A stretch of 42,272 nucleotides of DNA. It comes from an uncultured bacterium (lineage in GTDB: Bacteria > Bacteroidota > Bacteroidia > Bacteroidales > CAIWKO01). Location of the stretch: contig CAIOYH010000038.1 of the NCBI GenBank assembly GCA_903862465.1, forward strand, positions 1 to 42,272. Reading direction: 5' to 3'. A program made the translations under genes and the position numbers. Shown here piece after piece: positions 4,967-28,143 of the stretch (positions within the stretch are counted from its first letter, which is position 1; every line of letters begins with the position of its first letter). The notes below the pieces were generated by a model that saw only the letters and a program-made list of their open reading frames with translations, did no database searches and was not told the DNA's origin.

Positions 4967-5518
4967 ATGGGAAAGATATTTCATAAAAGAAGTTGGTATG
5001 TGTTGCTTTTACTCTCTCTCTTTGTTTCGTGCAAAACATCGAAACCCACGAAACATGCCCATCACACAGAAGTTAAGATTGACAATAGTTTCTATTCCAC
5101 CTATTCGAACAAATTAGGCGTCAAACTTTCGGGCAATGAAGATAAAGCCCTCATCAAATGTTTGGCGGGATGGTTGGGCACGCCTTACAAATATGCAGGA
5201 GAAAGCAAACAAGGCACTGACTGTTCGGGGATGGTGTTTTCGGTGTATAAAGAAGTTTATGGGGTTGATTTATATCGCAGTTCTTATGATCAAATGAAAA
5301 ATGTGAAAGAAATCAATAAGAAAGACTTAAGTGCAGGCGATTTGGTGTTCTTCATCACGTCAGGAAATGCGGTTTCGCATGTGGGCATTTACATTGGAGA
5401 CCATAAATTCATACATGCTTCAACTAAACGTGGAGTAGTAATAAACAGCCTTGAGGAAGACTATTATATAAAACATTTCTTTGTTTGCGGCAAAGTGATA
5501 ATGAAGCACGAAAAATGA
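4967..5518 (+). CDS. NlpC/P60 family cysteine peptidase lipoprotein
   Basis: This 183-residue protein has a lipoprotein signal with lipobox LFVSC (Cys22), so it is anchored in the envelope. The NlpC/P60 domain fills the rest. The catalytic Cys86 lies in GTDCSGMVF, His138 in SHVGIY and His150 in FIHAS, giving the complete C-H-H set. Family members cleave murein stem peptides, usually the D-Glu/meso-DAP bond, during wall turnover. ATG 4967 was chosen because the promoter -7 box (4941-4948) lies inside the longer frame and the signal peptide begins here. It stands alone, 146 bp ahead of the ChaN-like gene, which has its own promoter. Confidence 0.9.
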   Translation: MGKIFHKRSWYVLLLLSLFVSCKTSKPTKHAHHTEVKIDNSFYSTYSNKLGVKLSGNEDKALIKCLAGWLGTPYKYAGESKQGTDCSGMVFSVYKEVYGVDLYRSSYDQMKNVKEINKKDLSAGDLVFFITSGNAVSHVGIYIGDHKFIHASTKRGVVINSLEEDYYIKHFFVCGKVIMKHEK

Positions 5519-5625
5519 TGCGCAGCACAATGTTTATTCAACAAAGCAAGGTCCGTTTGGTACTCACTTTCGGTAAATAATTTCACATAAACATAAAAAA
5601 TATGCTCAGAGTTTAAAGTTTTCTC

Positions 5626-5633
5626 TATATTTG
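5626..5633 (+). promoter_or_regulatory. -7 box of the ChaN-like gene
   Basis: TATATTTG matches TAnnTTTG exactly, 31 bp before ATG 5665. The -33 region is poor (TTTAAAG-like). Confidence 0.5.
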
Positions 5634-5664
5634 CACCTCAATAATCATAAATAAAACAATTATC

Positions 5665-6525
5665 ATGTCGAAAACTCGTATTGGAATCCTTCTGTTAGCT
5701 CTTGCTTTAATGGCAATGACGGTTGACAAACCCGCTTATCAAATCTATAATGTAAAAGGTAAAAAAACTACTTACAACAATATGTTGAAAGACATTATGG
5801 GTTGTGAAGTGGTTTTGTTTGGCGAATTGCATGACAATCCTATTTCACATTGGTTGGAACTTCAAGTGGCTAAGGATTTATTCAAATTGAAAAAGCAAGA
5901 TTTGGTGTTGGGCGCCGAGATGTTCGAAACAGACAATCAAAATGCTTTGGATAAATATCTGAAAGGAGAAATAACCCAAGACACGCTTAAGAAACAAGCG
6001 CGTTTATGGAAAAATTATCCAACCGATTACAAACCTCTTGTGGATTTGGCAAAGAATACGAATCTGAAATTCGTTGCCACAAATATTCCCCGAAAATATG
6101 CCACTATGGTGATGAAGGCGGGTTTTGATACATTGAACATGCTGTCTGCCGCTGAAAAGAAACTAATGGCAGCGCTTCCAATTGAGTTCGATGGTGAACT
6201 ACCTCAATATAAAAGCATGTTGACAATGGATAGCAGCCATTCATCTCCAAATCTGCCAAAAGCACAAGCCATAAAAGATGCCACGATGGCTAGTTTCATT
6301 CAGGCGAACTACACTCAGGGTAAATTGTTCTTGCATTTCAACGGTTCCTATCATTCTGATTTCTTCGAAGGCATTATGTGGTATCTGAAAAAGAAAAATC
6401 CCGATATGCGTATTTTGACGATTTCGACTGTGGAACAAGACGACATCGGTAAGTTGTCAACGGATAATATAATGGCTGCAGATTATATCATTTGTGTGCC
6501 CGAAGATATGACCAAAACCTATTAA
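5665..6525 (+). CDS. ChaN family (haem-regulated, DUF399) protein
   Basis: This 286-residue protein has an N-terminal hydrophobic signal segment (about residues 5-20) without a lipobox Cys, so it is probably periplasmic. The ChaN hallmark VLFGELHDNPISHW is at residues 50-63, followed by AEMFE and LPKAQAIKDATMA. ChaN of Campylobacter binds haem as a dimer and is linked to iron uptake. The function in Bacteroidota is unproven, and the same fold also occurs in erythromycin-esterase/TraB-like enzymes. Its stop is 2 bp before the TTG proposed as rlpA start, so the two are probably cotranscribed. Confidence 0.82.
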   Translation: MSKTRIGILLLALALMAMTVDKPAYQIYNVKGKKTTYNNMLKDIMGCEVVLFGELHDNPISHWLELQVAKDLFKLKKQDLVLGAEMFETDNQNALDKYLKGEITQDTLKKQARLWKNYPTDYKPLVDLAKNTNLKFVATNIPRKYATMVMKAGFDTLNMLSAAEKKLMAALPIEFDGELPQYKSMLTMDSSHSSPNLPKAQAIKDATMASFIQANYTQGKLFLHFNGSYHSDFFEGIMWYLKKKNPDMRILTISTVEQDDIGKLSTDNIMAADYIICVPEDMTKTY

Positions 6526-6527
6526 TC

Positions 6528-7265
6528 TTGATTCGAGCCTACGTAACCGTACTCCTCTTTTTCTCCCAAATTTTCCTTTTTGCTCAAACCAAAGATCAAA
6601 CAGGCTACTGCACCTTCTATGCCGATAAATTTCAAGGGCATCACACGGCAAGCGGCGAATTGTATAACAAGGATGCCCTGACAGCTGCCCATCGCTCGCT
6701 TCCATTTAACACCTTGGTGGAGGTTACCAATTTGCGTAACAACAAAAAAGTGGTCGTCAGAATCAACGACCGCGGACCTGTTTCGCACAGTCGCTTGCTC
6801 GATGTGTCGAAAGCGGCGGCTATTGCTTTGGATATGGTTTCTTACGGTGTGCAAAAGGTTAGCATCAAAGTGTTGGATGCTCAAGCACCCATGCCGCGCT
6901 ACGACACCATCGTAAAGCCTATCATTGTAAACAAACCAATTCCCGAGAAGAAAGTTGTTGCGACCAACACCCTCCCGTTGGCAAATCATCAGATATATAC
7001 CAAAGATTTGAAAGCTGCAGATGTGCATGGCTACGGCGTGCAATTGGGCTATTACAAAAGCAAAAGCAATTGCGTTGCTGCCATAGCGTCTTATGAAACA
7101 AAATATAAAGCCACAGGATATTTCTTCGTGGAACAGAAAACGCAAGGCACCTATTATCGCCTTATATTGGGAAATTTCGACAACAAACAGCAAGCAGATG
7201 CCCTGAAGGTGACTATCGCGAAGGATATACAGGGGTGTTTTGTGGTGGCGTTTGAGAAGTTGTGA
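6528..7265 (+). CDS. rlpA: RlpA-like septal ring lytic transglycosylase with SPOR domain
   Basis: The 245-residue protein starts at TTG 6528, 2 bp after the chaN stop. No ATG is available upstream, and the TTG gives a clean signal peptide ending FLFAQ at residue 20. The double-psi beta-barrel domain spans about residues 25-110. It contains ASGELYN, LTAAHRSLPF, VVVRINDRGP and LLDVSKAAA; Glu44, His55 and Asp81 match residues important for RlpA activity. A SPOR domain (about 172-243, YGVQLGYY...RLILGNFDNKQQA) should bind denuded septal glycan. Characterised RlpA cleaves glycan strands lacking stem peptides at division sites. Unlike many homologues it has no lipobox. Confidence 0.88.
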   Translation: MIRAYVTVLLFFSQIFLFAQTKDQTGYCTFYADKFQGHHTASGELYNKDALTAAHRSLPFNTLVEVTNLRNNKKVVVRINDRGPVSHSRLLDVSKAAAIALDMVSYGVQKVSIKVLDAQAPMPRYDTIVKPIIVNKPIPEKKVVATNTLPLANHQIYTKDLKAADVHGYGVQLGYYKSKSNCVAAIASYETKYKATGYFFVEQKTQGTYYRLILGNFDNKQQADALKVTIAKDIQGCFVVAFEKL

Positions 7266-7269
7266 CAAA

Positions 7270-7441
7270 GCTCCAAATCCCAAATACCAAGGCTTGCCAC
7301 TACGAATTACGAATGTCCGAATTACGAATGCCGCTGACCGATTAGCACACACTGAATCCTTTTCTCATACATTACTCTTTATTCTTCAAACTTGGTATTT
7401 GGAGCTTGGAATTTGGATCTTGGATCTTGGTTCTTGGTATT
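7270..7441. repeat. Low-complexity inverted CCAAATnCCAAG / CTTGGnATTTGG repeats
   Basis: CTCCAAATCCCAAATACCAAGG at 7270-7291 is mirrored by several CTTGGTATTTGGAGCTTGG-type words at 7390-7440, so the transcript could fold back on itself. The segment between also carries the direct repeat listed separately at 7301-7331. No gene is visible here. Confidence 0.55.
7301..7331. repeat. Direct repeat left of the sirtuin gene (copy 1)
   Basis: This 31-bp unit is built of TACGAATTACGAAT, three variable bases, and CGAATTACGAATGC. It matches 8174-8204 at 28 of 31 positions. Each unit itself contains GAATTACGAAT twice. The word GCTGACCG follows both copies. Confidence 0.75.
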
Positions 7442-8125
7442 TCACCCCATGAGTTCCTGCGCCAACTTCGGCAGCGCTATCCCCGCTTTTTCTTTTATCA
7501 CCGTTAGGTTATAGAAATGTTGCACGTTGGCGGCGTTGGGGTCTATGTAATATTTGGGTGCGTGGCGGGGGGCGTAGTTGATTAATCCCGCTGCGGGATA
7601 CACATTGAGGGAGGTGCCTATCACCAACAGGATGTCGGCAGTTTCGGTTAGTTTGGCAGCCACTTCGATGTTGGGCACAGCTTCGCCAAACCACACGATG
7701 TGGGGACGCAGTTGAGAGCCTTTTTCGCAATGCTCGCCGAGGTTCACATCTTTGTAGCCTATGTCATAAATAAGTCTATCGTCAACGGTGCTGCGGACTT
7801 TGGTGAGTTCGCCATGCAGATGCAGTATGGGGGAAGAGCCGGCGCGTTCGTGCAAATCATCCACGTTTTGGGTGATGACGTGTACCTTGAATTTTTCTTC
7901 CAATTGCGCCAAGGCAAGGTGTCCGGCATTGGGCTGCACGGTGCCAAGTTGCCGACGGCGTTGGTTGTAGAAGTCGAGCACCAAACGTGGGTTGCGTTGC
8001 CAAGCATCGAAGGTGGCTACGTCTTCAATGCGATGTTCTTCCCACAGCCCGTCGCTGTCGCGGAAGGTGCGGATGCCGCTTTCGGCACTGATGCCGGCGC
8101 CCGTGAGGATGATGATTGTTTTCAT
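7442..8125 (-). CDS. cobB: NAD-dependent protein deacylase, class III sirtuin (CobB/SIRT5-like)
   Basis: This 227-residue cytosolic enzyme starts at the ATG giving MKTIIILTGAGISAESG. A longer frame to 8152 only adds repeat-derived residues. The Rossmann NAD site has GAGISAESGIRTFR (9-22) and TQNVDDLHERAG (85-96), with catalytic His104 in LHLHGE. Tyr53 and Arg56 (FYNQRR) form the class III signature that favours succinyl-, malonyl- or glutaryl-lysine over acetyl-lysine. Oddly, the four-Cys zinc knuckle is missing: Cys133 is the only cysteine in that region. The gene sits between direct repeats (7301-7331, 8174-8204) and has no operon partner. Confidence 0.9.
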   Translation of the reverse strand: MKTIIILTGAGISAESGIRTFRDSDGLWEEHRIEDVATFDAWQRNPRLVLDFYNQRRRQLGTVQPNAGHLALAQLEEKFKVHVITQNVDDLHERAGSSPILHLHGELTKVRSTVDDRLIYDIGYKDVNLGEHCEKGSQLRPHIVWFGEAVPNIEVAAKLTETADILLVIGTSLNVYPAAGLINYAPRHAPKYYIDPNAANVQHFYNLTVIKEKAGIALPKLAQELMG

Positions 8126-8173
8126 GGTGTTAGTTTCTAGTTCATAGTTCATAGTTCCGAGTTCGCCATACCC

Positions 8174-8204
8174 TACGAATTACGAATAGGCGAATTACGA
8201 ATGC
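8174..8204. repeat. Direct repeat right of the sirtuin gene (copy 2)
   Basis: Second copy of the unit at 7301-7331, differing only in the three central bases. GCTGACCG follows at 8226. Short words of the type AGTTCATAGTTC fill 8130-8165 between this copy and the sirtuin start. Confidence 0.75.
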
Positions 8205-8261
8205 AAACAAGAGAGTTCCGAGTTTGCTGACCGTTTAATCAGATTTCCATATATAATATTT

Positions 8262-8930
8262 CTATTTCGCAGCTTTCTTTTTCTTGGGGAAGGGCATGGG
8301 CATAAATCTATTCGGGGGACGATTTAATGAGTCTTTGGATGGATTGAAGTTGCTAGGGGAATTCATGAATTGTGGTGCCATGAAAATATCAGGCTTTACC
8401 AAAAACTTCCATTTTCCATTCATGCGATAATGTTTGGAGTTTGCCGCTTGAATTACACCGACCAAAGTGGCAACCGCTCCCGCAAAAGCAATAAAAATGG
8501 AGCCTAATTCGGGACCCATAGAAGCGCTTCCTTCCGTTCCATCGGAATCGTAGGTGTGTTTGGCATAATATCTCACAAAATAAATAAACAACCCAATGCC
8601 CGTGGCTGTAACTGCGCCCCCAATCGCAGGCAATACGCCATTACGATACTTATTGATACGGGTGATATCTTTCAATTTTATTTCTTTACCTTTTATGGTG
8701 ACAGAGGAATCGGAGATATATTCAATTTTGCCAACAAGATTTATAGTGTTGGTGACAACCCGTATCCGTTTCCCTGTTTTATACACGGTGGGCGGTCTTG
8801 ATGGTCCCGGTCCCCACGTCTGCTCTTTGGTGCTTTGTATCACTAACACGTTTTTTACTTTCGTGCTATCCTGCCCAAATATATTTGCCATCCACAGAAA
8901 GAGGGCAATAAGCGTAATTACTTTTTTCAT
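8262..8930 (-). CDS. Exported or membrane protein of unknown function
   Basis: I do not recognise this 222-residue protein. It has a signal peptide (MKKVITLIALFLWMANIFGQ). A small beta-rich stretch follows, where VGKIEYISDSSVTIKGKEI resembles the short strands seen in many Bacteroidota envelope proteins. Two hydrophobic segments at about 98-117 and 145-166 (GGAVTATGIGLFIYFV and FIAFAGAVATLVGVI) are probably transmembrane. The C-terminus is rich in Pro and Asn and ends FPKKKKAAK. The gene follows the PKD/T9SS protein at 18 bp on the same strand, so the two are likely cotranscribed. An envelope role is inferred. Confidence 0.6.
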   Translation of the reverse strand: MKKVITLIALFLWMANIFGQDSTKVKNVLVIQSTKEQTWGPGPSRPPTVYKTGKRIRVVTNTINLVGKIEYISDSSVTIKGKEIKLKDITRINKYRNGVLPAIGGAVTATGIGLFIYFVRYYAKHTYDSDGTEGSASMGPELGSIFIAFAGAVATLVGVIQAANSKHYRMNGKWKFLVKPDIFMAPQFMNSPSNFNPSKDSLNRPPNRFMPMPFPKKKKAAK

Positions 8931-8948
8931 ACTATCATCATTAAATTA

Positions 8949-9554
8949 TTAATCACCTATCACTATTTTCCTCGTTTCAATTTGTTTATCATCTATGATT
9001 AGTTTTAGAAAATACAGTCCGGTGCTGAGTTGATTGCGTTGAAGGGTGATTTGATTGCAATCGGTGTAATGGTTTTGCAAGAGGAGTTTGCCTTGAAGGT
9101 CGTAAAGGGAAAGGGCAATGGAGGGGTAGGTTTTGTCGAAGGAGATTTGGGTGGATAGGGAGAAGGGGTTGGGGGAGATAGTAAAGTTACTATTTTTGAT
9201 TGGCAGTAAATTAATGTCAGTTAAAGTTGAACAAGCATGACACCCTGATGCATCTGAAACTATATTACAAGAAGTAGTATCACAGCCATTAGCATTACAG
9301 GAAGTTAATATTAGATGATAAACGCCATAATTAGTATATACATGTTGAGTACTTTGTTGGTTAGAGTATGGCGAACCATCTCCAAAATCCCATTCAGAAT
9401 AATAAGGATTGTTCGTTGATACATCTGAAAAAATAAATGTGCAAATTGGATTGCTGCTACTGTAAACGTAACTATCAATTGCCGGAACGGGAACTTGAGC
9501 TTTTATATTTAAGCTCATCACAAGACTAAAAAAAAGAATAAATGTTTTTTTCAT
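8949..9554 (-). CDS. PKD-domain secreted protein with T9SS C-terminal sorting domain
   Basis: This 201-residue protein has a signal peptide (MKKTFILFFSLVMSLNIKA). One PKD/immunoglobulin-like domain spans about residues 30-100; its signature YSEWDFGDGSP is followed by QHVYTNYGVYHLILT. A type A T9SS sorting domain covers about 118-201, with NFTISPNPF, LYDLQGKLL and LSTGLYFLKLI. The protein is expected to pass the outer membrane by T9SS and be attached to the surface or released. No catalytic domain is present, so it is a small adhesin-like or structural cargo. Four Cys in the central part may form disulfides. Confidence 0.85.
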   Translation of the reverse strand: MKKTFILFFSLVMSLNIKAQVPVPAIDSYVYSSSNPICTFIFSDVSTNNPYYSEWDFGDGSPYSNQQSTQHVYTNYGVYHLILTSCNANGCDTTSCNIVSDASGCHACSTLTDINLLPIKNSNFTISPNPFSLSTQISFDKTYPSIALSLYDLQGKLLLQNHYTDCNQITLQRNQLSTGLYFLKLIIDDKQIETRKIVIGD

Positions 9555-10857: not shown

Positions 10858-11088
10858 GGTAGGAATAAAAAAAGGAACGGTAGGAGATGACAATGCTTCG
10901 GTAGGAAATAAAAAAGGAATGGTAGGAGATGACAATGCTATGGTAGGAGATGAAAAAGGAACGGTAGGAGATGATAAAGGAATGGTAGGAGATGAATAAG
11001 GAACGGTAGGAGATGAAAAAGGAATGGTAGGAAATGAAAAAGGAACGATAGGAGATGAAAAAGGAATGGTAGGAGATGAAAAAGGAGT
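10858..11088. repeat. Tandem array A: 11 units of exactly 21 bp
   Basis: Eleven units with consensus GGTAGGAGATGAAAAAGGAA plus a final C or T run without any indel. Units 1-4 alternate between two variants (AAAAAAGGAA and GACAATGCTT). In one frame a unit reads as a heptad of the type VGDEKGT, but stop codons (for example in unit 7) break it, so I do not call a gene. A complementary CTCCTACC lies at 11099-11106 just past the array and could pair with the last unit. The array is upstream of the 9690 gene. Confidence 0.95.
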
Positions 11089-15342: not shown

Positions 15343-16437
15343 CTAATCGAGAGGCTTGCCTGCATGTAACCCAAAGTATGTGAACACATAGCTTGCTTTT
15401 GGATTTATATGGCGACCGAGCTGTTGCTTGATTTGGGTGCAAACATACGGCTCAATATTCCCGGTCATTTCATAATAGTTTACCAAGTTCTCCGCACTCA
15501 TGATGCCTAAGCAGAAAGTCATGTAAAAATCTTTTGGGAAAGTGTTGCGCAGCTTAATAATATATAAGCTTTCGTCGAGACGTCGTTGTATCGGCTCTTG
15601 ATGTGGAATGATTTTCTCAGTGATAAGTTGCCTAATTTTCGGCATGTTCTCGGAAGAAAATTCAAGCGGAAATAGTTGCGCCGAAAGTTCTCGCAGGTCA
15701 TTCTTGAATGGAATGAGTGGAATGCGAACGTTTTCGCGAGAATGAAGCAATTGCTCGTAATTCAAAGAAGGTAGAGGTGGGGTATTCCACAATGGAACAG
15801 AAATAAACTCAAAATCTTGGTCTTCGGATGCTTGTAGTAGGGTTGGTTTAAAGAGCTTATCTACCATTGTGTCAAACGCTAAAAGTTTCTTTTTTTCAAT
15901 TATAGTCTCCGTTAAGTCAGCGATGTACCAATCTTCCTTAGTGGGGTCATAATTATAATCAGAGAACCATATATTCCATATCTTCTTTTCAATAAAAGGG
16001 ATTAGGCTCAATACTTGAGTCTTTTCGAACATAATCTCAACATCTAACTTCATGATCTTGCGCATTTGTTTCAATCGTTGATGATACCCTGCAATAGCCA
16101 CGAGAACTTCTTTACTCTTATGCTTCAAGTTCCTCATTTGTTTTATCATCGGCTGAAGCTGATTGAAAACTCCCAAGACATCCTTTTGGTCATCCGTGGT
16201 GGGAAAGAAACTAGGAACTAATCTTTCCACTATTTCATCTTTCCATGTATCAATATTCATGTAAAGAATGATATAATTTGCACTTCTCGTAGAATAGGTG
16301 ATGCTGTCTGACAACAATATGAAAGGATGTATGTAGAATTTGTCGAATTCAGACGAACCCCCTTCGCTAATTCTGTGATAAAAATTAATATCCATATAAA
16401 GAGCTTTTAATAATTTATACTTCCATCGAACCCCCAT
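15343..16437 (-). CDS. Orphan protein of unknown function next to 21-bp array B
   Basis: I do not recognise this 364-residue protein. It has no signal peptide and no transmembrane helix. It is rich in Lys, Ile and Leu and contains several amphipathic, possibly coiled-coil stretches (for example VFNQLQPMIKQMRNLKHKSKE and LKQMRKIMKLDVEIMF). A start at ATG 16395 (MDINFYHRIS) is also possible. A perfect -7 box (16468-16475, minus strand) lies 31 bp ahead of 16437 and favours the longer form. Its upstream flank holds the 12-unit array at 16624-16893, the same arrangement as the 9690 gene. Overall sequence shows no obvious similarity to the other orphan proteins. Confidence 0.6.
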   Translation of the reverse strand: MGVRWKYKLLKALYMDINFYHRISEGGSSEFDKFYIHPFILLSDSITYSTRSANYIILYMNIDTWKDEIVERLVPSFFPTTDDQKDVLGVFNQLQPMIKQMRNLKHKSKEVLVAIAGYHQRLKQMRKIMKLDVEIMFEKTQVLSLIPFIEKKIWNIWFSDYNYDPTKEDWYIADLTETIIEKKKLLAFDTMVDKLFKPTLLQASEDQDFEFISVPLWNTPPLPSLNYEQLLHSRENVRIPLIPFKNDLRELSAQLFPLEFSSENMPKIRQLITEKIIPHQEPIQRRLDESLYIIKLRNTFPKDFYMTFCLGIMSAENLVNYYEMTGNIEPYVCTQIKQQLGRHINPKASYVFTYFGLHAGKPLD

Positions 16438-16475: not shown

Positions 16476-16623
16476 CGTCTTTTTCTTTTATAGAACTATA
16501 TCAATGCAATTTTTTCTTCCGTAGCAATAAAAAAAATCCAGTTATACCTTGAACAGTAATCGCGAAGTACGAACCGTATCCATGAAACTTTCAGCGGGAG
16601 CAAGTCTGCTCTACTCTAGCCCG

Positions 16624-16893
16624 AGTCAGGCTAGCTCCAGTTTTAGTCAGCCTAGCTCCAGCTCTAGTCAGGCTAGCTGCAGTTCTAGTCAGGCTAGCTC
16701 CAGTTCTAGTCACGCTAGTTCCAGCTTCAGTCAGGCTAGTTCCGGTTTCAGTCAGGCTAGTTCCAGTTTTAGTCAGGCTAGTTCCGGTTTCAGTCAGGCT
16801 AGTTCTAGCTTCGGTCAGGCTAGTTCTGGTTTCAGTCAGGCTAGTTCCGGTTTCAGTCAGGCTAGGACTAGCTCTAGTCAGGCTAGGACTAGG
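16624..16893. repeat. Tandem array B: 12 full units of 21 bp and a partial one
   Basis: Consensus AGTCAGGCTAGTTCCAGTTT plus a pyrimidine, repeated without indels. Base changes concentrate in the last nine positions; the AGTCAGGCTAG core is nearly constant. In one plus-strand frame each unit reads SQASSSF, giving an apparent 145-codon frame (16549-16986), but the ends show no start signal and changes such as Q to H or S to C argue against a constrained protein. The array is upstream of the 15343 gene. 16894-17177 shows nothing else. Confidence 0.95.
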
Positions 16894-17178
16894 GCAATTC
16901 TGAGTAAAATTAGCCTCAGGCTGCTTTCATCTATAGCAATTCATGCATCAAAAGAATCTCTTAATGAGATAGATAAGGTGATTTAAACTGCAGAAAACTT
17001 CCGTAACCCGTGCACAATTTTGCTTGTAAAGCCGATAGAATTTACGGATACTATTTCCATCTTATATCAACAGAAATAAATCGTTCGCAAAAGCTCATTG
17101 AGTGTGTTTCTACAGCACGGTTCGTCTATGCTCTTAAGGATGCGTTATCGCAAAGCGTAAGAAAATACTTTTCAAATA

Positions 17179-17201: not shown

Positions 17202-17822
17202 CTACTTAATTAATCCCAATCCTTCCAAGGCGGAAGCGTCTTTGGGATGATTGAGCAAGGCTTTGTTGAACAGTATTTTCGCTTCGCGCAATTTGCCTAA
17301 GCGATAATTGGTCCATGCGAACATCAGCAAGGAATCGTAGTCGAAGGGATACAGGTTCACGTTCTTCTCGAAATAGGGAAGTGCTTTGCTGTATTCGGCT
17401 TTGCCATAATAAATATATCCCAACTTATAGTTGGCGGAGGTGTTTTGGGGGTCGGTTTTCAATATCTCGAGATATTGCGTTGCCACTTGGTCCCAATTGC
17501 CCAAAGCCGAAGCGGGATACACTATTCCGAACCGAGCTTCTATCCCGTAAGGCATCAAAGCGATGGCTTTTTGGTAGTAAGCCGTTGACTCGGTGAAATT
17601 TCCCGCCATATAGGTGAGCCAACCCAAGCGTAGGTTGAGTTCATAGGACTTTTCGTCATACACCTTCCGCAGCGCTTCGATGGCTTTGGGATAATCGCCC
17701 GATTTTTCGAGCGTGTAGCTATTGCTGAATGCCTCTTGTAGGGCTGCTGCATTGTCTTGCGCCATGCCGCGTTGCGCAAACAGCATCACCACGATGATGA
17801 TGGCTGCGATTCGTGTTTTCAT
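17202..17822 (-). CDS. Periplasmic TPR protein, last gene of the PqqD/ATP-grasp operon
   Basis: This 206-residue protein starts at ATG 17822 (MKTRIAAIIIVVMLFAQ...), 2 bp after the upstream stop. Cleavage after GMAQ gives a periplasmic protein. The mature part is four to five TPR units, such as EKSGDYPKAIEALRKVYDE, STAYYQKAIALMP and NYKLGYIYYGKAEYSKALPYF. TPR solenoids bind partner proteins; here the likely partners are the adjacent outer-membrane protein or the M23 domain of the transporter fusion. The gene is tightly coupled to the barrel gene and has no separate promoter. Confidence 0.8.
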   Translation of the reverse strand: MKTRIAAIIIVVMLFAQRGMAQDNAAALQEAFSNSYTLEKSGDYPKAIEALRKVYDEKSYELNLRLGWLTYMAGNFTESTAYYQKAIALMPYGIEARFGIVYPASALGNWDQVATQYLEILKTDPQNTSANYKLGYIYYGKAEYSKALPYFEKNVNLYPFDYDSLLMFAWTNYRLGKLREAKILFNKALLNHPKDASALEGLGLIK

Positions 17823-17824
17823 TT

Positions 17825-19213
17825 TTAAAGTTTCCATTTTAATCCTGCGTAAATTGAGTTTGAGTTATTTGTGTAATGATTTATTGTTGATGTTGTTAAT
17901 GAATAATATGTTCCTGTAATATCTTTCTGTGAAAACTGATAGCCGATGGTAAGTTCCAACACTTTCGAGACTTCATAAACACCAGTCAGCCCTACCATAT
18001 ACTTCACCTGCTCGGGATTGTTGAAAACGACGGTAGCGTTCGCTTTATTATATCCCCGCAAGCCATTGAAGGCTCCTTGCGCCTCTATCCACAAATTCTT
18101 TGTCACCTTCCCGCCGATAGCTTCTTCTATGACGGCGTGACTTTTATCTCCATTTGTAGCTGCAATAGTCTGTTGTACAGCTCCTTTAGCACGCTTATAT
18201 CCGTTACTTGCCCCGGGGAATATCATATATGCTAAAGTGGTAGTGGAATAAAGATTCAAATTACCCAAGGGAAACCAAGTGACTTGTCCCGTAGCTTGAA
18301 AGATGTTTTTATTATATATGCGCGAAAATGAAGCCGCCAAACCAAGTGAAACCGTGCTAATATCTTTGTTGAACGCAAGCGAAGCGATGATATTATTGTA
18401 AGAGAAATTAGTCAACGGAAAGGTATATGTGCTATCTGTGACATTCAATAGCGGCGATGTCTTCGCATACTTTAGCGACTGATACTGCAATGCAGGCACT
18501 ATGGTCAACTTATTTTTGGAAGAGATTTCCGTATTGACATAAAAGTGGTGCTCCGCCACATTATATTTTTCATCTATAGTACTCAAGGGTGTAACAGTTT
18601 CTTTCATCCTCCGACTGTCGAAATACTCGTAGGCAGCATTGAGTGCTATGCCCCCGAAATAATGTTTATAATCCAATCCGAAGAACATATAACTTTGAGG
18701 CAAATCAAACTGCAGCACCCCTAAACTCGGATTATATACATACGCAAGTTTATTATCCCCTTGATATCCTACCTCCGGTGAAAAGGAGTTGCGATACAAG
18801 GGAAATTGTTTCAAAATGCGCTGACGGGCATTTCCTTTTAGTTGCTTCGCGATATGGCTCTGATACAAAGGGCGATTGTAGCTCCTATAGGCATAATACA
18901 TATACTCCAATGCGGTGCTATCGCCGGAGTTAAATTTCGTTGCTTTCTGCAGATGTTGTATCGCTTTCGCGTATTTTCCTTTGTTGAAATAGGCAATGCC
19001 GAGGCGGATGCGAAGATAATAATAATCAATATCACTTTTGAGAGCCGTTTTGCCCACGGCGACCAAGGAGTCCCACTTTTGGTCTAAGAAATAGTGATAG
19101 GTTGTTGCATCCACAGTGCGAAAGGTAGGAGCCTCCTGCGCATGAAGCCGATGCGTCATCCCCACGATGGCGAGTAGCCCTATCAGGTAATATGTCAATT
19201 GATTCTTTTTCAT
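17825..19213 (-). CDS. Outer-membrane beta-barrel protein with N-terminal TPR segment
   Basis: This 462-residue protein has a signal peptide (MKKNQLTYYLIGLLAIVGMTHRLHA). A short TPR-like helical part follows (about 45-120, LRIRLGIAYFNKGKYAKAI). From about 150 the protein alternates short amphipathic strands rich in Tyr, Asn and Thr, and it ends IYAGLKWKL, as expected of an outer-membrane barrel of about 14-16 strands. The layout resembles YaiO-type barrels. In this operon it could be the outer-membrane exit or anchoring site for the product of the cytoplasmic enzymes. It overlaps the transporter gene by 4 bp, indicating translational coupling. Function is inferred from context only. Confidence 0.72.
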   Translation of the reverse strand: MKKNQLTYYLIGLLAIVGMTHRLHAQEAPTFRTVDATTYHYFLDQKWDSLVAVGKTALKSDIDYYYLRIRLGIAYFNKGKYAKAIQHLQKATKFNSGDSTALEYMYYAYRSYNRPLYQSHIAKQLKGNARQRILKQFPLYRNSFSPEVGYQGDNKLAYVYNPSLGVLQFDLPQSYMFFGLDYKHYFGGIALNAAYEYFDSRRMKETVTPLSTIDEKYNVAEHHFYVNTEISSKNKLTIVPALQYQSLKYAKTSPLLNVTDSTYTFPLTNFSYNNIIASLAFNKDISTVSLGLAASFSRIYNKNIFQATGQVTWFPLGNLNLYSTTTLAYMIFPGASNGYKRAKGAVQQTIAATNGDKSHAVIEEAIGGKVTKNLWIEAQGAFNGLRGYNKANATVVFNNPEQVKYMVGLTGVYEVSKVLELTIGYQFSQKDITGTYYSLTTSTINHYTNNSNSIYAGLKWKL

Positions 19214-21450
19214 TTTATGTTCGTTGGAATAGTGGTTGCCACCATCGTTTTGTTCTTATGGCTCACCGAAAATTGTGTTATACGGTCTTTATGTATCAGC
19301 ATTTCGCCCTCATAGCGCTGCATCCTGATGCCTCCCACCTTGATATCCACTTGAGAGTTCAGCACGATGCTACTGTCGGAGAAGTCGTCGGTCTTGCTTA
19401 CGTATTTCAGCAGATAGTTCGTCTTGAGGAACATGAAGAAGGGCGCAACGAAGTCTTGCAGCAAAATCAGCAAGCCGCTGTTGAGGGTGTCCACGGGGAA
19501 GGTGTCTTTCAGTTCGATATCTTTATAATATCCATAAAGTACCTTGTAAGCTGTCAGATAAAAATAGAACAGCAACGAACGGCGCTTCCCTTCGAAGGCG
19601 GTGAAATACATCATGTCGTCGTCGCTTTTAAAATATAGCTTCGATTTGGTGGTTGCACACCAAATATAGGTCGAATTATAGATGTCTGCCACCACTTCCC
19701 ACGTGTATATCTTGGTTTTTCCGTTAGCCATGACGGTCGAAAACTGAAATTGCTGCCCGGGTATGAAATGGAAGGCTTTGTATAGGGTTTGATTCTTCTC
19801 CACTGCGGTCACTTTGTCGCCTTCTGAGGGTTTCTCAAACGACTGCAGGGTGAAGCCCTTGTCGGTATTCAGGATGTAATGTCCCAAGGGGTAATCCAAT
19901 GTCTTCGACCCGATGAACGGCGTTGCTTGCAACTGAAAATGGATGTGCGGCTGCGGCGAACGCCCCGAGTTTCCGCAATATGCCATGATGTCGCCTTTCT
20001 TCAGCGTGTCGCCTTTCTGCACTTTGAAGCTGTCTTTCTTCAGATGACAGGTCTTGGAGTAAAGCCCTTCGGCATGTTTGATGACGATAGAGTTACCCCA
20101 ATTCTCCTCAGTGTTCACGTCGCCAATCGCGTTATCGTCAATGCCATCCACAACCTCCTCTACCACGCCCGCCAAGGGAGCTATCACGGGTTTGTTATAA
20201 CAGTAGTAATCTTCCACCGACATGCCGCTGCCTTGAAACAGTGCATCCTTGGTATCAGCTATCTCAAAGTCCCATGCCTGCTTCCAATCGCCTTTGTGGG
20301 TGATGTTGCCGTTGTGTGCCTGCGTCACCTTCCATTCTCCCCAAAAGGGTAAAGAAAACGGGAAGTAGTATGACTTGCGGAAGCGTTCTTTGTTGTTATG
20401 TTGCAGATAGAGATTCTTTTCCGGGGAATAATGCTGAATCAACACCATCTGCGGCTTGTCGTAGAAACGTTCGCGGAACTTCAACGCATAGAGAAACAAA
20501 AGCACTACGGCATTGAATGGCAAAGAATATATGGGCAGTTGATAGAGATTCATGATAGCCGTTGCAGAAGTAATCGTGATGGAGATTAATGGCACCAACA
20601 GCAGCACCCACAAGAAGGAATGCTTGCTTGAAATTACAAAGAAACCACCAATCGCAATGGCAGTTAGGATGAAATTGAAACCAATATAATTATAGTTCAA
20701 TGCACTAATATCAGCCCCTATGAAGGAATAGAACCAATAAGCGGAAAAGAATCCCACCAAAGACAGCAGGAAGCCGATGCGCGAATAAATCAACAGCCCC
20801 AAAGCCATCAACATGCCCGCAAACACATGATATTGGAAGAAGATAGCACCCAACGAACGGAAATATATCACCCAAAACATAGGGATGTTCAGCTTCCCGA
20901 ACCACACATAGAGGCGCACCAAGCCTTGACCTCCCAAAGCCTGCAAATCGTTCAACACATAAATGCCCCGCTCGCTAATTTGGAGATTCGTGAATTGGCG
21001 TGTCGCCAAAATCAGCATCCAAATGGCAAACAAGAACGGAATACTCAAGAATGGTAGCCCGTATTTGCCAATAACGCCTTCCATCAATAAAGTGAAGAAC
21101 AAAGAGAGCATGGACGCAAAGACGAGTATCAAAAGAAACTGCGAGTTCAATTGATAATAGCTGCCCAACGCCAAACCCGTGAGCAAACTATTGAAACCAT
21201 AAGCACCGGATATGATATTCTTGCGATTGAATCCGATGATATACGCCATCAGATTGGTCAACACCACGCACAACACGCCACTGAAACCCGCCACCCAATC
21301 GAAGAAGGTGACGAGTATCAGTATCAGCGCGAAAACAAGATTGTTAGAGAAAAAGATTTGGGTATAGCTGTTCAATATACTCTTCACAAACTGCGGAAAG
21401 AGGCTGCGTCCCTTGTTGAGGGTAGGGGAAATACTGAAAGCTAATGCCAT
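19210..21450 (-). CDS. Urea-transporter-like membrane protein fused to an M23 metallopeptidase domain
   Basis: This 746-residue protein combines two families. Residues about 30-325 hold ten or so membrane segments with the urea-transporter signature (YIIGFNRKNIISGAYGFNSLLTG and the mirrored ADISALNYNYIGFNFILTA). Residues about 370-520 form a periplasmic M23 (LytM-like) domain. Its zinc ligands appear complete: His385 and Asp394, the HxH pair His502/His504 in PQPHIHF, and His469 in KTCHL. A further 200 residues without known motifs follow. UT proteins pass urea or similar small polar solutes; M23 enzymes cleave peptide crosslinks. The gene starts 4 bp after the PLP decarboxylase stop. The fusion suggests a channel whose product is processed or anchored in the periplasm. 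Confidence 0.85.
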   Translation of the reverse strand: MALAFSISPTLNKGRSLFPQFVKSILNSYTQIFFSNNLVFALILILVTFFDWVAGFSGVLCVVLTNLMAYIIGFNRKNIISGAYGFNSLLTGLALGSYYQLNSQFLLILVFASMLSLFFTLLMEGVIGKYGLPFLSIPFLFAIWMLILATRQFTNLQISERGIYVLNDLQALGGQGLVRLYVWFGKLNIPMFWVIYFRSLGAIFFQYHVFAGMLMALGLLIYSRIGFLLSLVGFFSAYWFYSFIGADISALNYNYIGFNFILTAIAIGGFFVISSKHSFLWVLLLVPLISITITSATAIMNLYQLPIYSLPFNAVVLLFLYALKFRERFYDKPQMVLIQHYSPEKNLYLQHNNKERFRKSYYFPFSLPFWGEWKVTQAHNGNITHKGDWKQAWDFEIADTKDALFQGSGMSVEDYYCYNKPVIAPLAGVVEEVVDGIDDNAIGDVNTEENWGNSIVIKHAEGLYSKTCHLKKDSFKVQKGDTLKKGDIMAYCGNSGRSPQPHIHFQLQATPFIGSKTLDYPLGHYILNTDKGFTLQSFEKPSEGDKVTAVEKNQTLYKAFHFIPGQQFQFSTVMANGKTKIYTWEVVADIYNSTYIWCATTKSKLYFKSDDDMMYFTAFEGKRRSLLFYFYLTAYKVLYGYYKDIELKDTFPVDTLNSGLLILLQDFVAPFFMFLKTNYLLKYVSKTDDFSDSSIVLNSQVDIKVGGIRMQRYEGEMLIHKDRITQFSVSHKNKTMVATTIPTNIK

Positions 21451-21454
21451 GTAG

Positions 21455-22813
21455 TTATAATTCGAACTTTTTTAAATAATCGGGAGTCCGTTCGGGTCCT
21501 GTGATGCTTTCCAAGGTTTCGTTATCGCGGATGATGTGGACTCTTTCGTCCATATCTATCATCACAATTTTCGGGCGCAGGGTGATAAATTGCATCCACT
21601 GCGTCATGTTGTAAGCACCCATTTGATGTACCACCAAATGGTCTCCTTTGTTCAGCAAAGGTAAGCTAATATTTTCACGTACCACATCAATATTCATACA
21701 TAAAGGTCCATACAAAACCGTATCTTCTGCATAATGTGTGAATTCCTGAGCGGGAGAAACCTTATGGTCGTACCAAAAAGCTGTGAACATGATGTTGACA
21801 CCGAAGTCTAAAATAGTAGCTCGCTTGCCTGTTGACAGTCTTTTGTTGGCAATAACAGAACCCACCAAGAAGCCTGCATCATCAATCAAAGCCCGCCCGG
21901 TTTCGAGTATCAAAGTGGGAAGCTTATCCTGACGGAGATTGCTGTTGATTAACACCGAGGTGATAGCTTCTGCATAATCGTCAAAGGTCGGATTGGTATC
22001 CGAACCCGGGAGGTAAGAACCTTTCAGGGTGTTTTTGGATGTGAAACCTCCGCCCAAGTCAATGTATTTGATGTCGTGGTTAAACTTAGTTTGTAGGCTG
22101 ATGGCTAAATCGGTAAGCTTGGTAGCCGCAACAGCATACGCCCCCGGCGACAACATAAAGGTGCCGATATGGCAATGCAAGCCAACGAGTTCCAACTTTT
22201 CGGAACGCATAATCTTGTTGAGCGCATCCCACGCCTGTCCGTTTTCATAATTAAAGCCAAAGCGGTCCCACATAGGATAAACGCCTGTGTCCATGTTTAC
22301 GCGGATGGCTACCCGCGGTCTTTTGTTCATGGATGTTGCCAAATCAATGATGGTATAAAGCTCGTCCAAATGGTCAATATGTATCAGGGAGTCGTTGTTG
22401 ATGGCTTTCTTCAGGTCTTCTTCCGTTTTGTCGGGACCGTTAAAGATGATCTTCTTGCCACTGACACCATTCGCGATGGCTTTGTCATATTCAAAACCCG
22501 ACACGACTTCTGCCCACGAACCTTCCTGATGAAAGGCACAGCAAACGGCATTCATGTAATTGGTTTTATAAGACCAAGCAAACTGTACCTTGGGATAGCG
22601 CGTCGTGAAGGCACGTTTCGCCTGTTGAAAGGTGTTGCGCAGGGTGCTTTCGGAAATCACAAAGAGGGGCGAACCGTATTCCTTTGCCAAATCGCTGACA
22701 GCAATGCCATCAATATGTGTTTTGGGTGTGTATTCAGAACGCATTCCGAATTTATTGGGCATGCCGGTATCGAGTTTTTTTAGTACCGGACGTTCATATT
22801 TTTTCTTTTCCAT
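21455..22813 (-). CDS. Fold-type III PLP-dependent amino-acid decarboxylase-like enzyme
   Basis: This 452-residue protein belongs to the ornithine/diaminopimelate decarboxylase family. Lys83 in AWSYKTNY is the expected Schiff-base lysine. His213 and His215 in GLHCHIGT, GGGF (254-257) and ETGR (304-307) bind PLP phosphate and ring. The usual GPxCD substrate motif reads GPLCMN (369-374), so catalytic Cys372 is kept but the Asp after it is lost. The substrate is therefore probably not plain diaminopimelate or ornithine. The first 35 residues form an extra basic arm. It sits between the ATP-grasp ligase (12-bp gap) and the transporter fusion, so decarboxylation of an amino acid or ligated peptide is a fair inference. 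Confidence 0.85.
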   Translation of the reverse strand: MEKKKYERPVLKKLDTGMPNKFGMRSEYTPKTHIDGIAVSDLAKEYGSPLFVISESTLRNTFQQAKRAFTTRYPKVQFAWSYKTNYMNAVCCAFHQEGSWAEVVSGFEYDKAIANGVSGKKIIFNGPDKTEEDLKKAINNDSLIHIDHLDELYTIIDLATSMNKRPRVAIRVNMDTGVYPMWDRFGFNYENGQAWDALNKIMRSEKLELVGLHCHIGTFMLSPGAYAVAATKLTDLAISLQTKFNHDIKYIDLGGGFTSKNTLKGSYLPGSDTNPTFDDYAEAITSVLINSNLRQDKLPTLILETGRALIDDAGFLVGSVIANKRLSTGKRATILDFGVNIMFTAFWYDHKVSPAQEFTHYAEDTVLYGPLCMNIDVVRENISLPLLNKGDHLVVHQMGAYNMTQWMQFITLRPKIVMIDMDERVHIIRDNETLESITGPERTPDYLKKFEL

Positions 22814-22825
22814 GTTGTTGTTTTT

Positions 22826-23872
22826 TTAAAGTTCTCCTAAAGTTGTTATTTTCTCAAATTCGCTAATGTCCACTATCATATCATAAGAATATCGAACAAA
22901 CATTTTGCCGATGGCATAGTCGGTGTAAGGCTCTACTTTTTTGCCCAATGCCAATTTCACCAAGGCTTCGGGGATGTTTTGTCCGCAGCCAACCGCCAAA
23001 TACACCCAAGCAGGGATACGCGGATTGATTTCCAACAAAAAGTATTTCCCGTTGGCATCTTTCATCAGCTCGAGTTCGAAGCCGCCTTTCCATTTGGTGG
23101 CTTTCACAAATTTGCGCGTCATATCCAATAAGATTTTTTCATCAATGGAGATGCCCGCCCATGCTTTCCCCTTGTCGGTGATAAACTGTTTGCGCATCGG
23201 CACTGCCGCTATGGTGTTGCCTTTCCCATCGCCCAAGCCGACCACATTGTACTCATTTCCCATCACAAATTGCTGCACGATGATAGGCAATCCCCACTTG
23301 GCACTTATCTTATTAAAGTAGGTCTTAGCTTGTTCGGGGTTGTGGGCTATGCCGGCATCGTAGAATTTCCCCTTGATGACGACAGGATACATAAAATCCT
23401 TTTCCAAACCATAGACTTCTTCGGGCGCATAAATGGTTTTGCTTTTGGGAACAGGGATGTCATACTTCTTTCCAAATTCATCGAGGTTGAATTTATGACG
23501 TTCTTCAAATTGAAACAGCGTAGGCAGACACATGTGAATGCCCATTTGCTTCAACTGCGGTTCTAACTTGATGAAGGAATACAACTCCGCATCCAAGTTG
23601 GGGATGATGACATCCAAATGCTCTTTGGATTGAATATATTCCAAACGGTCGAGCAAACGGTCGGCGCCTGCCGAAGGATAGGGCAACTGATAGGTTTTGT
23701 CCACCAACTCGTGCATATAGATACCCGGGTCGAGCGACTCATAGGAAAGCCCTATGATACGCGACTCCATCTCCACAGAATCGCGAATGCCGCGGATGAC
23801 GGGTATGCCCGGACCCGGACTGTCAATGGGATTGATGCCCGTTACCCCTACGGTGATTTTAGTTCTTTTCAT
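22826..23872 (-). CDS. ATP-grasp ligase (CarB-like)
   Basis: This 348-residue protein has the ATP-grasp order. An N-terminal pre-ATP domain begins KITVGVTGINPIDSPGPG. A B-domain lysine lies in YPVVIKGKFYDAG, and the Mg/ATP site has GGFELELMKDANGKYFLLEINPRIPAW with the usual Glu and Asn ligands. It resembles carbamoyl-phosphate-synthase-like and amino-acid ligases that join a carboxylate to an amine through an acyl phosphate. It overlaps the PqqD gene by 14 bp, so the two are translationally coupled. The natural substrate is not predictable; pairing with a PqqD-like protein suggests a peptide or carrier-bound substrate. Confidence 0.85.
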   Translation of the reverse strand: MKRTKITVGVTGINPIDSPGPGIPVIRGIRDSVEMESRIIGLSYESLDPGIYMHELVDKTYQLPYPSAGADRLLDRLEYIQSKEHLDVIIPNLDAELYSFIKLEPQLKQMGIHMCLPTLFQFEERHKFNLDEFGKKYDIPVPKSKTIYAPEEVYGLEKDFMYPVVIKGKFYDAGIAHNPEQAKTYFNKISAKWGLPIIVQQFVMGNEYNVVGLGDGKGNTIAAVPMRKQFITDKGKAWAGISIDEKILLDMTRKFVKATKWKGGFELELMKDANGKYFLLEINPRIPAWVYLAVGCGQNIPEALVKLALGKKVEPYTDYAIGKMFVRYSYDMIVDISEFEKITTLGEL

Positions 23873-24113
23873 CGGCTTGTATCAATTGATGATGTTTCAA
23901 CACATTGACAAAGTCATATAAGTCGCGTTCCATAGTGGCTTCATCTATATTATAAGAAGTGCAAAGCTCTTTGACCACCTTTTCGGAAGTCATGCCCGCC
24001 TTAAACAGTTGAATGATTTCGGCACCAATAGGATTGATGGAAAACGATTCGCCCGTCACGGGGTTTAAGCAAAAGCCATTTTCGCTGATGGCTAAGTTTT
24101 TGTTGATTTTCAT
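23859..24113 (-). CDS. PqqD-like small protein (RiPP-recognition type)
   Basis: This 84-residue cytosolic protein carries the PqqD winged-helix pattern: a beta-hairpin (LAISENGFCLNPVTGESFSI), INPIGAEIIQLFKAGMT, then a helical C-terminus with DLYDFVNVLKHHQLI. PqqD domains present precursor peptides to modifying enzymes in pyrroloquinoline quinone and many other ribosomal peptide pathways. It is the first gene of the six-gene operon and overlaps the ATP-grasp gene. No radical-SAM gene or obvious short precursor peptide is next to it; the 5' region 24114-24345 shows no convincing small frame. The client may be encoded elsewhere. Confidence 0.82.
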   Translation of the reverse strand: MKINKNLAISENGFCLNPVTGESFSINPIGAEIIQLFKAGMTSEKVVKELCTSYNIDEATMERDLYDFVNVLKHHQLIQADEKN

Positions 24114-24420: not shown

Positions 24421-25446
24421 ATGAGAAACTCGACGTCCGATTTGGTGAAAGGTGTAGCGGTGATGCTGATGGTTCAGGTGCATCTCATGGAGTTGTTTGC
24501 CATGGAAAGCCAATCGGGAAGCCTCGTGGGGAAGCTCTCGCTTTTCGGCGGTGGTGCTCCTGCTGCTCCTATCTTTATGTTGATCATGGGATATTTTGCC
24601 ATGCAATCGAGCAAGACCTTTGGCATGCAATTGTGGCGCGGTGCCAAACTCTTGCTGTTGGGCTTTGGGCTGAATGTGATGCTGAATGTGCATGTGTTGT
24701 TGCGTATCGCTTTCGGCACGCTCGATGTTGACCCGTGGAAATTTGTTTTCGGCGTGGATATTCTCCCCTTGGCAGGGATAAGCATCATGCTGATTGCCTT
24801 GTTTCGCTATGCTTTCGCCCGAAATCTTATACCTTATAGTATTGCCATTCTCTTTGCCGTGCTGTTTCCCTTTTTTGATTATGCTTTCGTGGTGCCGGGC
24901 AAGACTGCTTATCTGATGGCATTTTTGGGAGGGAGTTATGCTTGGTCTTATTTCCCTTTGTTTCCGTGGGTGGCATATCCTTTGACGGGTTGCGTGCTAT
25001 TTATCTTAGGCGAACGCGCCACGGTGAAACTCTTTGTGGAAAAGCAGGGCAGATGGTTATTCCTCATTGGTTTGGCAGCCGTGGGAGCTACCGCTTTTTT
25101 GGCAGCGCCTAACATTGTGGACTTGCCCTTCTATTATCATCACAACATATTTCTTTATGTGTGGATAGTGGCGTTCTGCTTGGTTTGGTATGGGCTGTTA
25201 AACAAAGTCAACGCGCTTTCCCAACGGGCTTGGGTCTTGGTATATCTGCGATGGGTGGGCAAGAATGTTACCGCCTTTTATGTGTTTCAATGGATCATCA
25301 TCGGCAACCTCGCCACTTGGTTATATCTCACCCAAAGAGGATGGCAATTGTGTTGTTGGTTTGTGGGCATCACCTTTGCGGTAAGTGTATTGGTGTGGAC
25401 GTGGAATCAATTGATGCGGATTCGCAACCAAGATATCGTGTTGTGA
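24421..25446 (+). CDS. Acyltransferase-like integral membrane protein (DUF1624/HGSNAT type)
   Basis: This 341-residue inner-membrane protein has about ten hydrophobic segments. The N-terminus DLVKGVAVMLMVQVHLMEL carries the Asp-x-x-(K/R)-G...M...H pattern of the DUF1624/heparan-alpha-glucosaminide N-acetyltransferase and acyltransferase-3 clan. The His after the first helix is the presumed catalytic base. GGGAPAAPIFMLIMGYF in helix two is also typical. Such proteins move acyl groups from cytosolic acyl-CoA to sugars or other extracytoplasmic acceptors. It is divergent from the PqqD operon, so a shared role is possible but not shown. Confidence 0.72.
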   Translation: MRNSTSDLVKGVAVMLMVQVHLMELFAMESQSGSLVGKLSLFGGGAPAAPIFMLIMGYFAMQSSKTFGMQLWRGAKLLLLGFGLNVMLNVHVLLRIAFGTLDVDPWKFVFGVDILPLAGISIMLIALFRYAFARNLIPYSIAILFAVLFPFFDYAFVVPGKTAYLMAFLGGSYAWSYFPLFPWVAYPLTGCVLFILGERATVKLFVEKQGRWLFLIGLAAVGATAFLAAPNIVDLPFYYHHNIFLYVWIVAFCLVWYGLLNKVNALSQRAWVLVYLRWVGKNVTAFYVFQWIIIGNLATWLYLTQRGWQLCCWFVGITFAVSVLVWTWNQLMRIRNQDIVL

Positions 25447-27849: not shown

Positions 27850-28143
27850 AGTCCCGTCTTAAGAAATATTGAATCCGACTTATGAGATATTCAATCCGAC
27901 TTATGAAATATTGAATCCGACTTATGAAATATTGAATCCGACTTATGAAATATTCAATCCGACTTATGAGATATTCAATCCGACTTATGAAATATTGAAT
28001 CCGACTTATGAAATATTCAATCCGACTTATGAAATATTGAATCCGACTTATGAAATATTGAATCCGACTTATGAAATATTCAATCCGACATAAGAAATAT
28101 TCAATCCGACATAAGAAATATTCAATCCGACTTAAGAGATATT
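27850..28143. repeat. Tandem array C: 13 clear units of 21 bp and one degenerate unit
   Basis: Consensus SAATCCGACTTATGAAATAT plus T (S = G or C), with exact 21-bp spacing over 14 units and no indels. Units vary mainly at position 1 (G/C), position 16 (A/G) and, in the last three, TTAT becomes ATAA or TTAA. In one plus-strand frame a unit reads NPTYEI plus L or F, open for 74 codons, but neither end has gene-like context. The gene-free span 27725-28338 also includes a promoter at 28245 and a stub frame at 28264. Confidence 0.95.

Follow-up and report, generated by a model that had tools for sequence, protein, structure and literature searches.

A conserved operon for cytosolic and envelope proteins

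The 42,272-nucleotide window analysed here (contig CAIOYH010000038.1, from a Bacteroidota assembly of 4.2 Mb in 230 contigs; all positions are in window numbering) carries a six-gene operon at 17202-24113. It encodes, from 5' to 3', a PqqD-like protein, an ATP-grasp ligase, a fold-III decarboxylase dependent on pyridoxal phosphate (PLP), a fusion of a urea-transporter-fold (UT) channel with an M23 metallopeptidase (UT-M23), a secreted protein with a tetratricopeptide repeat (TPR) domain and a predicted outer-membrane beta-barrel (the barrel protein), and a second secreted TPR protein (Table 1). All six open reading frames (ORFs) lie on the minus strand where they were initially annotated, and their successive junctions are a 14-nt overlap, a 12-nt gap, a 4-nt gap, a 4-nt overlap and a 13-nt overlap. 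The reading frames, junctions and domain assignments of the initial annotation were confirmed, with the exception of the barrel, which is a prediction, and the suggested layout of the products from the cytosol to the outer membrane is supported. The firm new point, read from the sequences, is that the decarboxylase appears to be tagged for a peptide recognition element.

UT-M23 and the decarboxylase were searched independently in the same 395 genomes of the phylum and were found in the identical 34, neither of them occurring alone (Fisher 7e-50). In an order-level sample of 59 genomes, 24 contain both proteins and two contain only one, each time at a contig end; in one of these two (G025) a truncated UT-M23 fragment adjoins the decarboxylase gene. 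The operon is present in 98 of the 235 genomes sampled from one order. Among 131 scanned loci, the order PqqD, ATP-grasp, decarboxylase, UT-M23, barrel, TPR on one strand is found in 56 (most of the remaining loci are broken by contig ends), and in 14 further loci the TPR gene precedes a short barrel. PqqD and ATP-grasp are adjacent in 113 of the 116 scanned loci that hold both, ATP-grasp and decarboxylase in 115/123, and decarboxylase and UT-M23 in 96/114. The same one-strand order is seen in neighbourhoods from 40 other genomes, belonging to many families and more than one class. A deep clade has the TPR gene followed by a short barrel-like protein, which is related to the window barrel by profile comparison (probability 96%). 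In the genome G056 the trio of PqqD, ATP-grasp and decarboxylase genes is intact on one contig and the envelope genes are on another, which points to two modules that are retained jointly even when unlinked.

Homologous genes scattered without linkage would have spoken against a single system; instead, the order is fixed and the linkage extends across genomes. With the co-inheritance of UT-M23 and the decarboxylase, this makes the operon almost certainly one functional unit. No paper on UT-M23 or on this gene set was found in the open-licence PMC literature, in agreement with the initial annotation, to which no described pathway with this set was known. Relative to the searchable open-licence papers the system is undescribed, and it is phylum-wide, being widespread in Bacteroidota and tightly co-inherited, and couples cytosolic chemistry to the envelope. 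The contig scan gave only one near-identical locus (UT-M23 98% identical, from an uncultured-bacterium bin), and the plasmid searches gave only distant single-gene relatives.

Recognition element and its motif on the decarboxylase

The PqqD protein is, by its sequence, a lasso-type (B1) recognition element (RRE) of the kind known from ribosomally synthesised and post-translationally modified peptides (RiPPs). Its best NCBIfam models are lasso_PqqD, with scores below the cut-offs, and its best PDB match is TbiB1 (5v1u/5v1v, 5e-10). Lasso RREs bind the leader motif [Y/W]xxPx[L/V/I/F/A], and in the related RRE LppB an aspartate, D70, is hydrogen-bonded to the leader Tyr in the crystal structure (PMC13381572). 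The initial annotation supposed that PqqD presents a ribosomal precursor peptide, to be sought in neighbouring genomes. This was not borne out, as no conserved small ORF besides PqqD itself was found within 700 b upstream of the operon, in the gap between the decarboxylase and UT-M23 genes, or within 500 b downstream, and the recognition motif sits on the decarboxylase. The N-terminus of this enzyme reads MEKKKYERPVLKKLDTGMPNKFG. The pattern [YF]xxPx[LIV] is present in the N-terminal tail of all 37 decarboxylase family members examined, and the stricter [YF][ED][KRS]Px[LIV] in 36 of them versus none of 504 neighbouring proteins. Alignments to the N-citrylornithine decarboxylase FslC and to the diaminopimelate decarboxylase (DAPDC) of Methanocaldococcus (MjDAPDC) begin past the tail, at query residues 39 and 33, respectively. 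The NCBIfam lasso-leader model gave no match on the tail; the evidence for the motif is therefore the pattern itself, how well it is conserved, and the covariation described below.

The RRE position matching LppB D70 (Asp64 of the PqqD protein) was read in 115 loci. Where the tail has Tyr (86 loci), the RRE residue is Asp in 76, Asn in 9 and His in 1; where the tail has Phe (29 loci), it is Tyr in 16, Ser in 8, Ala in 4 and His in 1, and never Asp or Asn. In total 114 of the 115 loci are concordant (Tyr with Asp/Asn in 85/86, Phe with Tyr/Ser/Ala/His in 29/29). The RRE trait was also simulated under a fitted two-state model along the decarboxylase-core tree, with no dependence on the tail trait; 114 concordant loci were reached in none of 5000 simulations (the maximum was 98/115). 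In an unbiased mutual information analysis with average-product correction (effective number 99), the pair of decarboxylase Tyr6 and PqqD Asp64 ranks first of 35,100 column pairs, with a z of 15.4 versus 9.3 for the runner-up. This pair is the contact seen between D70 and the leader Tyr in the LppB structure (PMC13381572).

Since no precursor was found nearby, the motif is on the decarboxylase and the two positions covary, the RRE most likely docks an enzyme, and, judged from these sequence patterns, PqqD very probably docks directly on the decarboxylase tail. The lasso pairs TbiB1-TbiA, FusB1-FusA and PbaB1-PbaA and the LppB-LppA pair share with it the RRE fold, the pocket positions, the ligand motif and the Asp contacting the Tyr; in contrast to them, the predicted ligand here belongs to a metabolic enzyme, as its N-terminal tail. 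No conserved precursor with a YxxP leader was found in the flanks or gaps, and the transglutaminase-like leader protease and the asparagine-synthetase-like cyclase of lasso systems are absent from the conserved gene order. RREs are known as readers of peptide precursors and serve as markers in searches for ribosomal natural products. The same recognition code here appears to hold enzymes together, and some 'orphan RRE' genes may therefore not be RiPP clusters.

Two alternatives retain a modified peptide. In a RiPP pathway, PqqD would bind a precursor encoded elsewhere, the ATP-grasp enzyme would modify it as in graspetides, which are made by ATP-grasp enzymes (PMC8939145), the PLP enzyme would decarboxylate a residue, and the tail would compete for the RRE or regulate it. 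The genuine lasso-type RRE fits such a pathway; however, the missing small ORF, the motif and the covariation, which implicate the decarboxylase, make it unlikely. The ATP-grasp protein, moreover, matches carbamoyl-phosphate-synthase-like models in NCBIfam and not graspetide ligases, and with no short precursor found around the operon it falls outside the graspetides. The decarboxylase might alternatively be its own precursor, with the RRE guiding the ATP-grasp enzyme to the KFG...P.THID stretch after the motif, with the outcome being either a product attached to the protein or activation of the enzyme. This stretch is conserved and located like a leader-core boundary, but it runs directly into the barrel fold. 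The ATP-grasp protein, for its part, is of the carboxylate-amine-ligase type, and we know of no precedent, so that this possibility seems quite unlikely as well.

Two further observations concern PqqD genes. In naive ORF calling, antisense ORFs can mask the real gene for PqqD (in L042, upstream of ATP-grasp; in L079, at 5502-5780; in L090 and others), and PqqD may be under-annotated in such operons. A second PqqD-domain protein is encoded in one genome (G000:C29:25154-25318, L100).

Table 1. Features of the operon, its two predicted recognition sites and the probable accessory genes
Feature	Position or loci	Strand	Evidence
PqqD-like protein, lasso-B1-type RRE, 84 aa	23859..24113	-	Pfam PF05402 8e-12; NCBIfam; PDB TbiB1
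RRE residue Asp64, equivalent of leader-Tyr-contacting LppB D70 / PbaB1 Q79	23922..23924	-	alignment, PMC13381572; top covarying column with decarboxylase Tyr6
ATP-grasp ligase, 348 aa, carbamoyl-phosphate-synthase-like	22826..23872	-	ATPgrasp_Ter 4e-11; conserved ELE, EINPR; nearest PDB 2pn1, E 0.002
PLP fold-III decarboxylase, 452 aa, nearest N-citrylornithine decarboxylase FslC/FigC	21455..22813	-	Orn_Arg_deC 5e-31/1e-12; NCBIfam; PDB 7kh2
YERPVL motif, decarboxylase residues 6-11, leader-like N-terminal tail	22781..22798	-	pattern counts; alignments
UT-M23 fusion, 746 aa: urea-transporter-fold channel, residues 23-323; M23 metallopeptidase, about 380-510	19210..21450	-	UT 9e-59; Peptidase_M23 3e-14
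Secreted TPR domain + predicted outer-membrane beta-barrel, 462 aa	17825..19213	-	TPR Pfam matches; profile match to deep-clade short barrel-like protein
Secreted TPR protein, 211 aa	17202..17837	-	TPR Pfam matches
Probable accessory membrane acyltransferase, Acyl_transf_3/HGSNAT-like, divergent	24421..25446	+	Pfam; homologues beside/inside operon in 9 loci
Secreted-protein family n1	L028, L037, L142, L166, L171, L174, L176, L177, L181, L183, L151, L041		
Secreted-protein family n2	L084, L085, L088, L185-L188, L191-L193		

Active site of the decarboxylase and the envelope proteins

In NCBIfam the decarboxylase matches the FslC model (2e-70; 237.6 bits, cut-off 500) and lysA (2e-65; 220.8 bits, cut-off 297.9), and its best PDB match is 7kh2 (1e-57). 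Residue roles were taken from the study of FigC (PMC7857480) and counted over the 37 family members. The equivalents of FigC K63, R151, H198, E287, R290, C354, M355 and Y383 are invariant, those of T327/Y331 are near-invariant, and H357 and R387 are replaced by Ile and Gln, respectively, in 37/37. In FigC, H357 and R387 are the citrate contacts of a docking model, and M355 occupies the position of the acidic residue that binds the side-chain amine in other enzymes of the fold (PMC7857480). The Met at this position suggests that the side-chain amine of the substrate is probably capped, and the loss of the modelled citrate contacts that the cap is probably not citrate. FigC is grouped with SbnH, AcsE, MccE and BtrK, whose substrates are conjugates or carrier-bound amino acids (PMC7857480). 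The DAPDC determinants are lost (no Glu/Asp after the catalytic Cys, with CMN in place of CES, and T344 in place of the Arg of the 3-10 helix), and the retained Lys, His, Glu, Arg and Cys, with Met replacing the side-chain-amine binder, place the enzyme among the fold-III conjugate decarboxylases ('clade 2' without DAPDC). An identity as a polyamine or rhizoferrin enzyme was rejected on the active-site residues.

With a conserved ATP-grasp ligase beside the decarboxylase, ligation followed by decarboxylation would be the simplest order of events, and we regard it as likely. The ATP-grasp product, a non-citryl conjugate, would then probably be the substrate of the decarboxylase. A small conjugated amine, close to what was first proposed for the operon, is supported as the likely product. 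The decarboxylase has the same catalytic set as FslC/FigC (and SbnH, AcsE, BtrK and MccE), with the Met next to the catalytic Cys; it differs from FslC/FigC in the two lost citrate contacts, in its added, predicted RRE-binding tail, and in that an ATP-grasp enzyme replaces the nonribosomal peptide synthetase-independent siderophore (NIS) synthetase as the partner. In the butirosin pathway BtrJ is an ATP-grasp ligase. That pathway, in which BtrK acts on the carrier BtrI (PMC7857480), likewise has a fold-III decarboxylase after an ATP-grasp ligase, and a small protein assists them. The assisting protein of the operon is an RRE and not an acyl carrier, and no carrier protein is encoded there.

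In the M23 domain, His385, His469, His502 and His504 are present in all 38 homologues and Asp394 in at least 95%. Similar M23 domains are found on haloarchaeal plasmids; haloarchaea are not known to have murein, and murein thus need not be the substrate. The channel domain shares the fold and most pore residues with the urea transporters (dvUT, UT-A/B). Of the dvUT pore residues, the equivalent of Gln24 is kept in 29/38 and that of Glu187 is Ala in 31/38. It differs from the urea transporters also in the M23 fusion and in having no urease partner. Among the 34 carriers a single one encodes urease, as do 11 of the 361 non-carriers; the rate is the same, which excludes the feeding of a urease as a general role. 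For the urea channel of the initial annotation, this leaves an assignment of fold. As a separate observation, in one locus (L089 of genome G063, 6944-9198) UT and M23 are encoded by two overlapping genes, and a multi-kilobase insertion lies 5' of the barrel gene.

The barrel protein is the fastest-evolving member (often about 22-26% identity where the decarboxylase has 60-80%). It has no Pfam barrel match, and an AlphaFold model from two sequences (pLDDT 31) was discarded. The assignment as an outer-membrane barrel is therefore kept as a prediction, based on the sequence character and on the profile similarity to the shorter barrel-like homologues.

These features also bear on three other functions. 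In peptidoglycan tailoring, the DAPDC-related enzyme would act on the free end of conjugated diaminopimelate, and M23 would cut cross-links, allowing modified stems to be incorporated or set free. The intact M23 residues, the ligase in the operon and the common ancestry of the PLP enzyme with DAPDC (PMC7857480) agree with this; the lost DAPDC determinants, the haloarchaeal M23 domains and the lack of a Mur-type partner in the operon make it improbable. The synthesis of a siderophore or N-citryl-type metallophore (rhizoferrin-like), suggested by FslC as the nearest characterised relative, is very improbable given the replaced citrate contacts and an operon with no NIS synthetase, TonB receptor or major facilitator superfamily exporter. 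Urea acquisition or nitrogen scavenging through the channel is scarcely credible, since, despite the strong UT-fold match, the urease rate, the Ala at the Glu187 position and enzymes with no urea logic all oppose it. Compared with the lasso, graspetide, FslC, DAPDC and urea-uptake systems, the operon fails on a defining feature of each, the channel itself staying a putative urea transporter.

A proposed two-module model and a possible link to type IX secretion

SprA, a marker of the type IX secretion system (T9SS), is present in all 34 carriers versus 269 of 361 non-carriers (p 1.6e-4). GldM was positive in 57 of 59 genomes of the order and hence uninformative, and SprA across the phylum was used instead. 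In 22 loci the operon is accompanied by a gene for a small secreted protein that carries a T9SS C-terminal domain and belongs to one of two families (Table 1). Family n1 (12 loci) is found 5' of PqqD, between ATP-grasp and decarboxylase, or 3' of TPR, always co-directional, and n2 (10 deep-clade loci) directly upstream of PqqD; profile alignment hints at a distant relationship between these families (hhalign 65%, E 6e-5). The genome of the window has a single n1-like protein with a T9SS domain, which is a weak match and is encoded away from the operon. A membrane acyltransferase is encoded close to the operon or within it in 9 loci, the window among them (in L181 and L183 between TPR and n1), and may for this reason belong to the system. 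VimA/VimE-like genes (for a deacetylase and a GNAT protein) 5' of UT-M23 in L029 were dropped, having no NCBIfam support.

The linkers of T9SS cargo use a free amine joined to the C-terminus of the cargo (PMC7468200). Seen in this light, the presence in T9SS genomes of an operon predicted to yield an amine is suggestive and nothing beyond that. The known cargo conjugation (PorU sortase, Wbp/Vim linking sugar) shares with the operon the restriction to T9SS genomes, here with a T9SS-domain protein travelling with the operon; it differs in that no sortase, Wbp or Vim gene was recognised in the operon, and conjugation here is hypothetical. Export or envelope attachment of the product, as initially annotated, may likewise be proposed from sequence, the gene of the T9SS-secreted partner being the sole pointer. 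A surface use of the product together with such a partner is possible, and we put it forward tentatively.

On balance we favour a model with two modules, cytosolic synthesis and envelope use. In the cytosol, the ATP-grasp enzyme would couple an acid to the side chain of an amino acid. From this conjugate the FslC-like decarboxylase would strip the alpha-carboxyl, leaving a capped aminoalkyl amide. The RRE would grip the decarboxylase tail with the Tyr/Pro/Leu pockets used for lasso leaders, presenting no ribosomal precursor, and would thereby tether decarboxylase and ligase in one complex. UT-M23 would sit in the inner membrane and expose its zinc peptidase to the periplasm and, with the outer-membrane TPR-barrel and TPR proteins, would release the small product and use it at the surface, probably jointly with the T9SS-secreted protein and the acyltransferase. 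What the sequences show directly is the operon with its gene order and co-inheritance, the motif in the tail and its covariation with the RRE, the active-site signature and the accessory genes. From these we infer in which order the enzymes act, that the ligase partners the RRE, what the product is, and how it reaches and serves the surface.

Several points weigh against this model. The Tyr/Phe switches are few (parsimony counts 7 for the tail and 8 for the RRE), many of them on weakly supported branches, and the tree-based pair test on well-supported branches comprises just two pairs and has no power. Asn was grouped with Asp after the data had been seen; Asp alone gives 76/86 versus 0/29. 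The ligase as the partner of the RRE is a conjecture, and the whole case is built from sequence comparison. UT channels pass small neutral solutes passively, and a charged amine may not suit them. The T9SS association is confounded by phylogeny, with the T9SS-negative genomes clustered in few families, and the secreted-protein gene is linked in about a fifth of the loci only.

A more far-reaching proposal is that RREs were co-opted for enzyme docking, with a tagged decarboxylase in a precursor-free complex, and that the amine exits through the channel-peptidase and outer-membrane conduit to become a nucleophile or decoration for the T9SS-secreted surface protein. As a whole this is doubtful; if true, it would represent a new pathway class and a new mode of T9SS cargo anchoring.

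Elsewhere in the window, a 364-aa protein encoded 3' of the operon (15343-16437, minus strand) shows a weak match to a dynamin-like helical domain and has no homologue in the compared neighbourhoods. Tandem repeats of 21 bp form three separate arrays with differing units, at 10869-11086 (10 copies), 16624-16886 (12) and 27854-28143 (14), the middle one lying inside a 145-aa ORF rich in Ser, Gln and Ala (16549-16986, plus strand).

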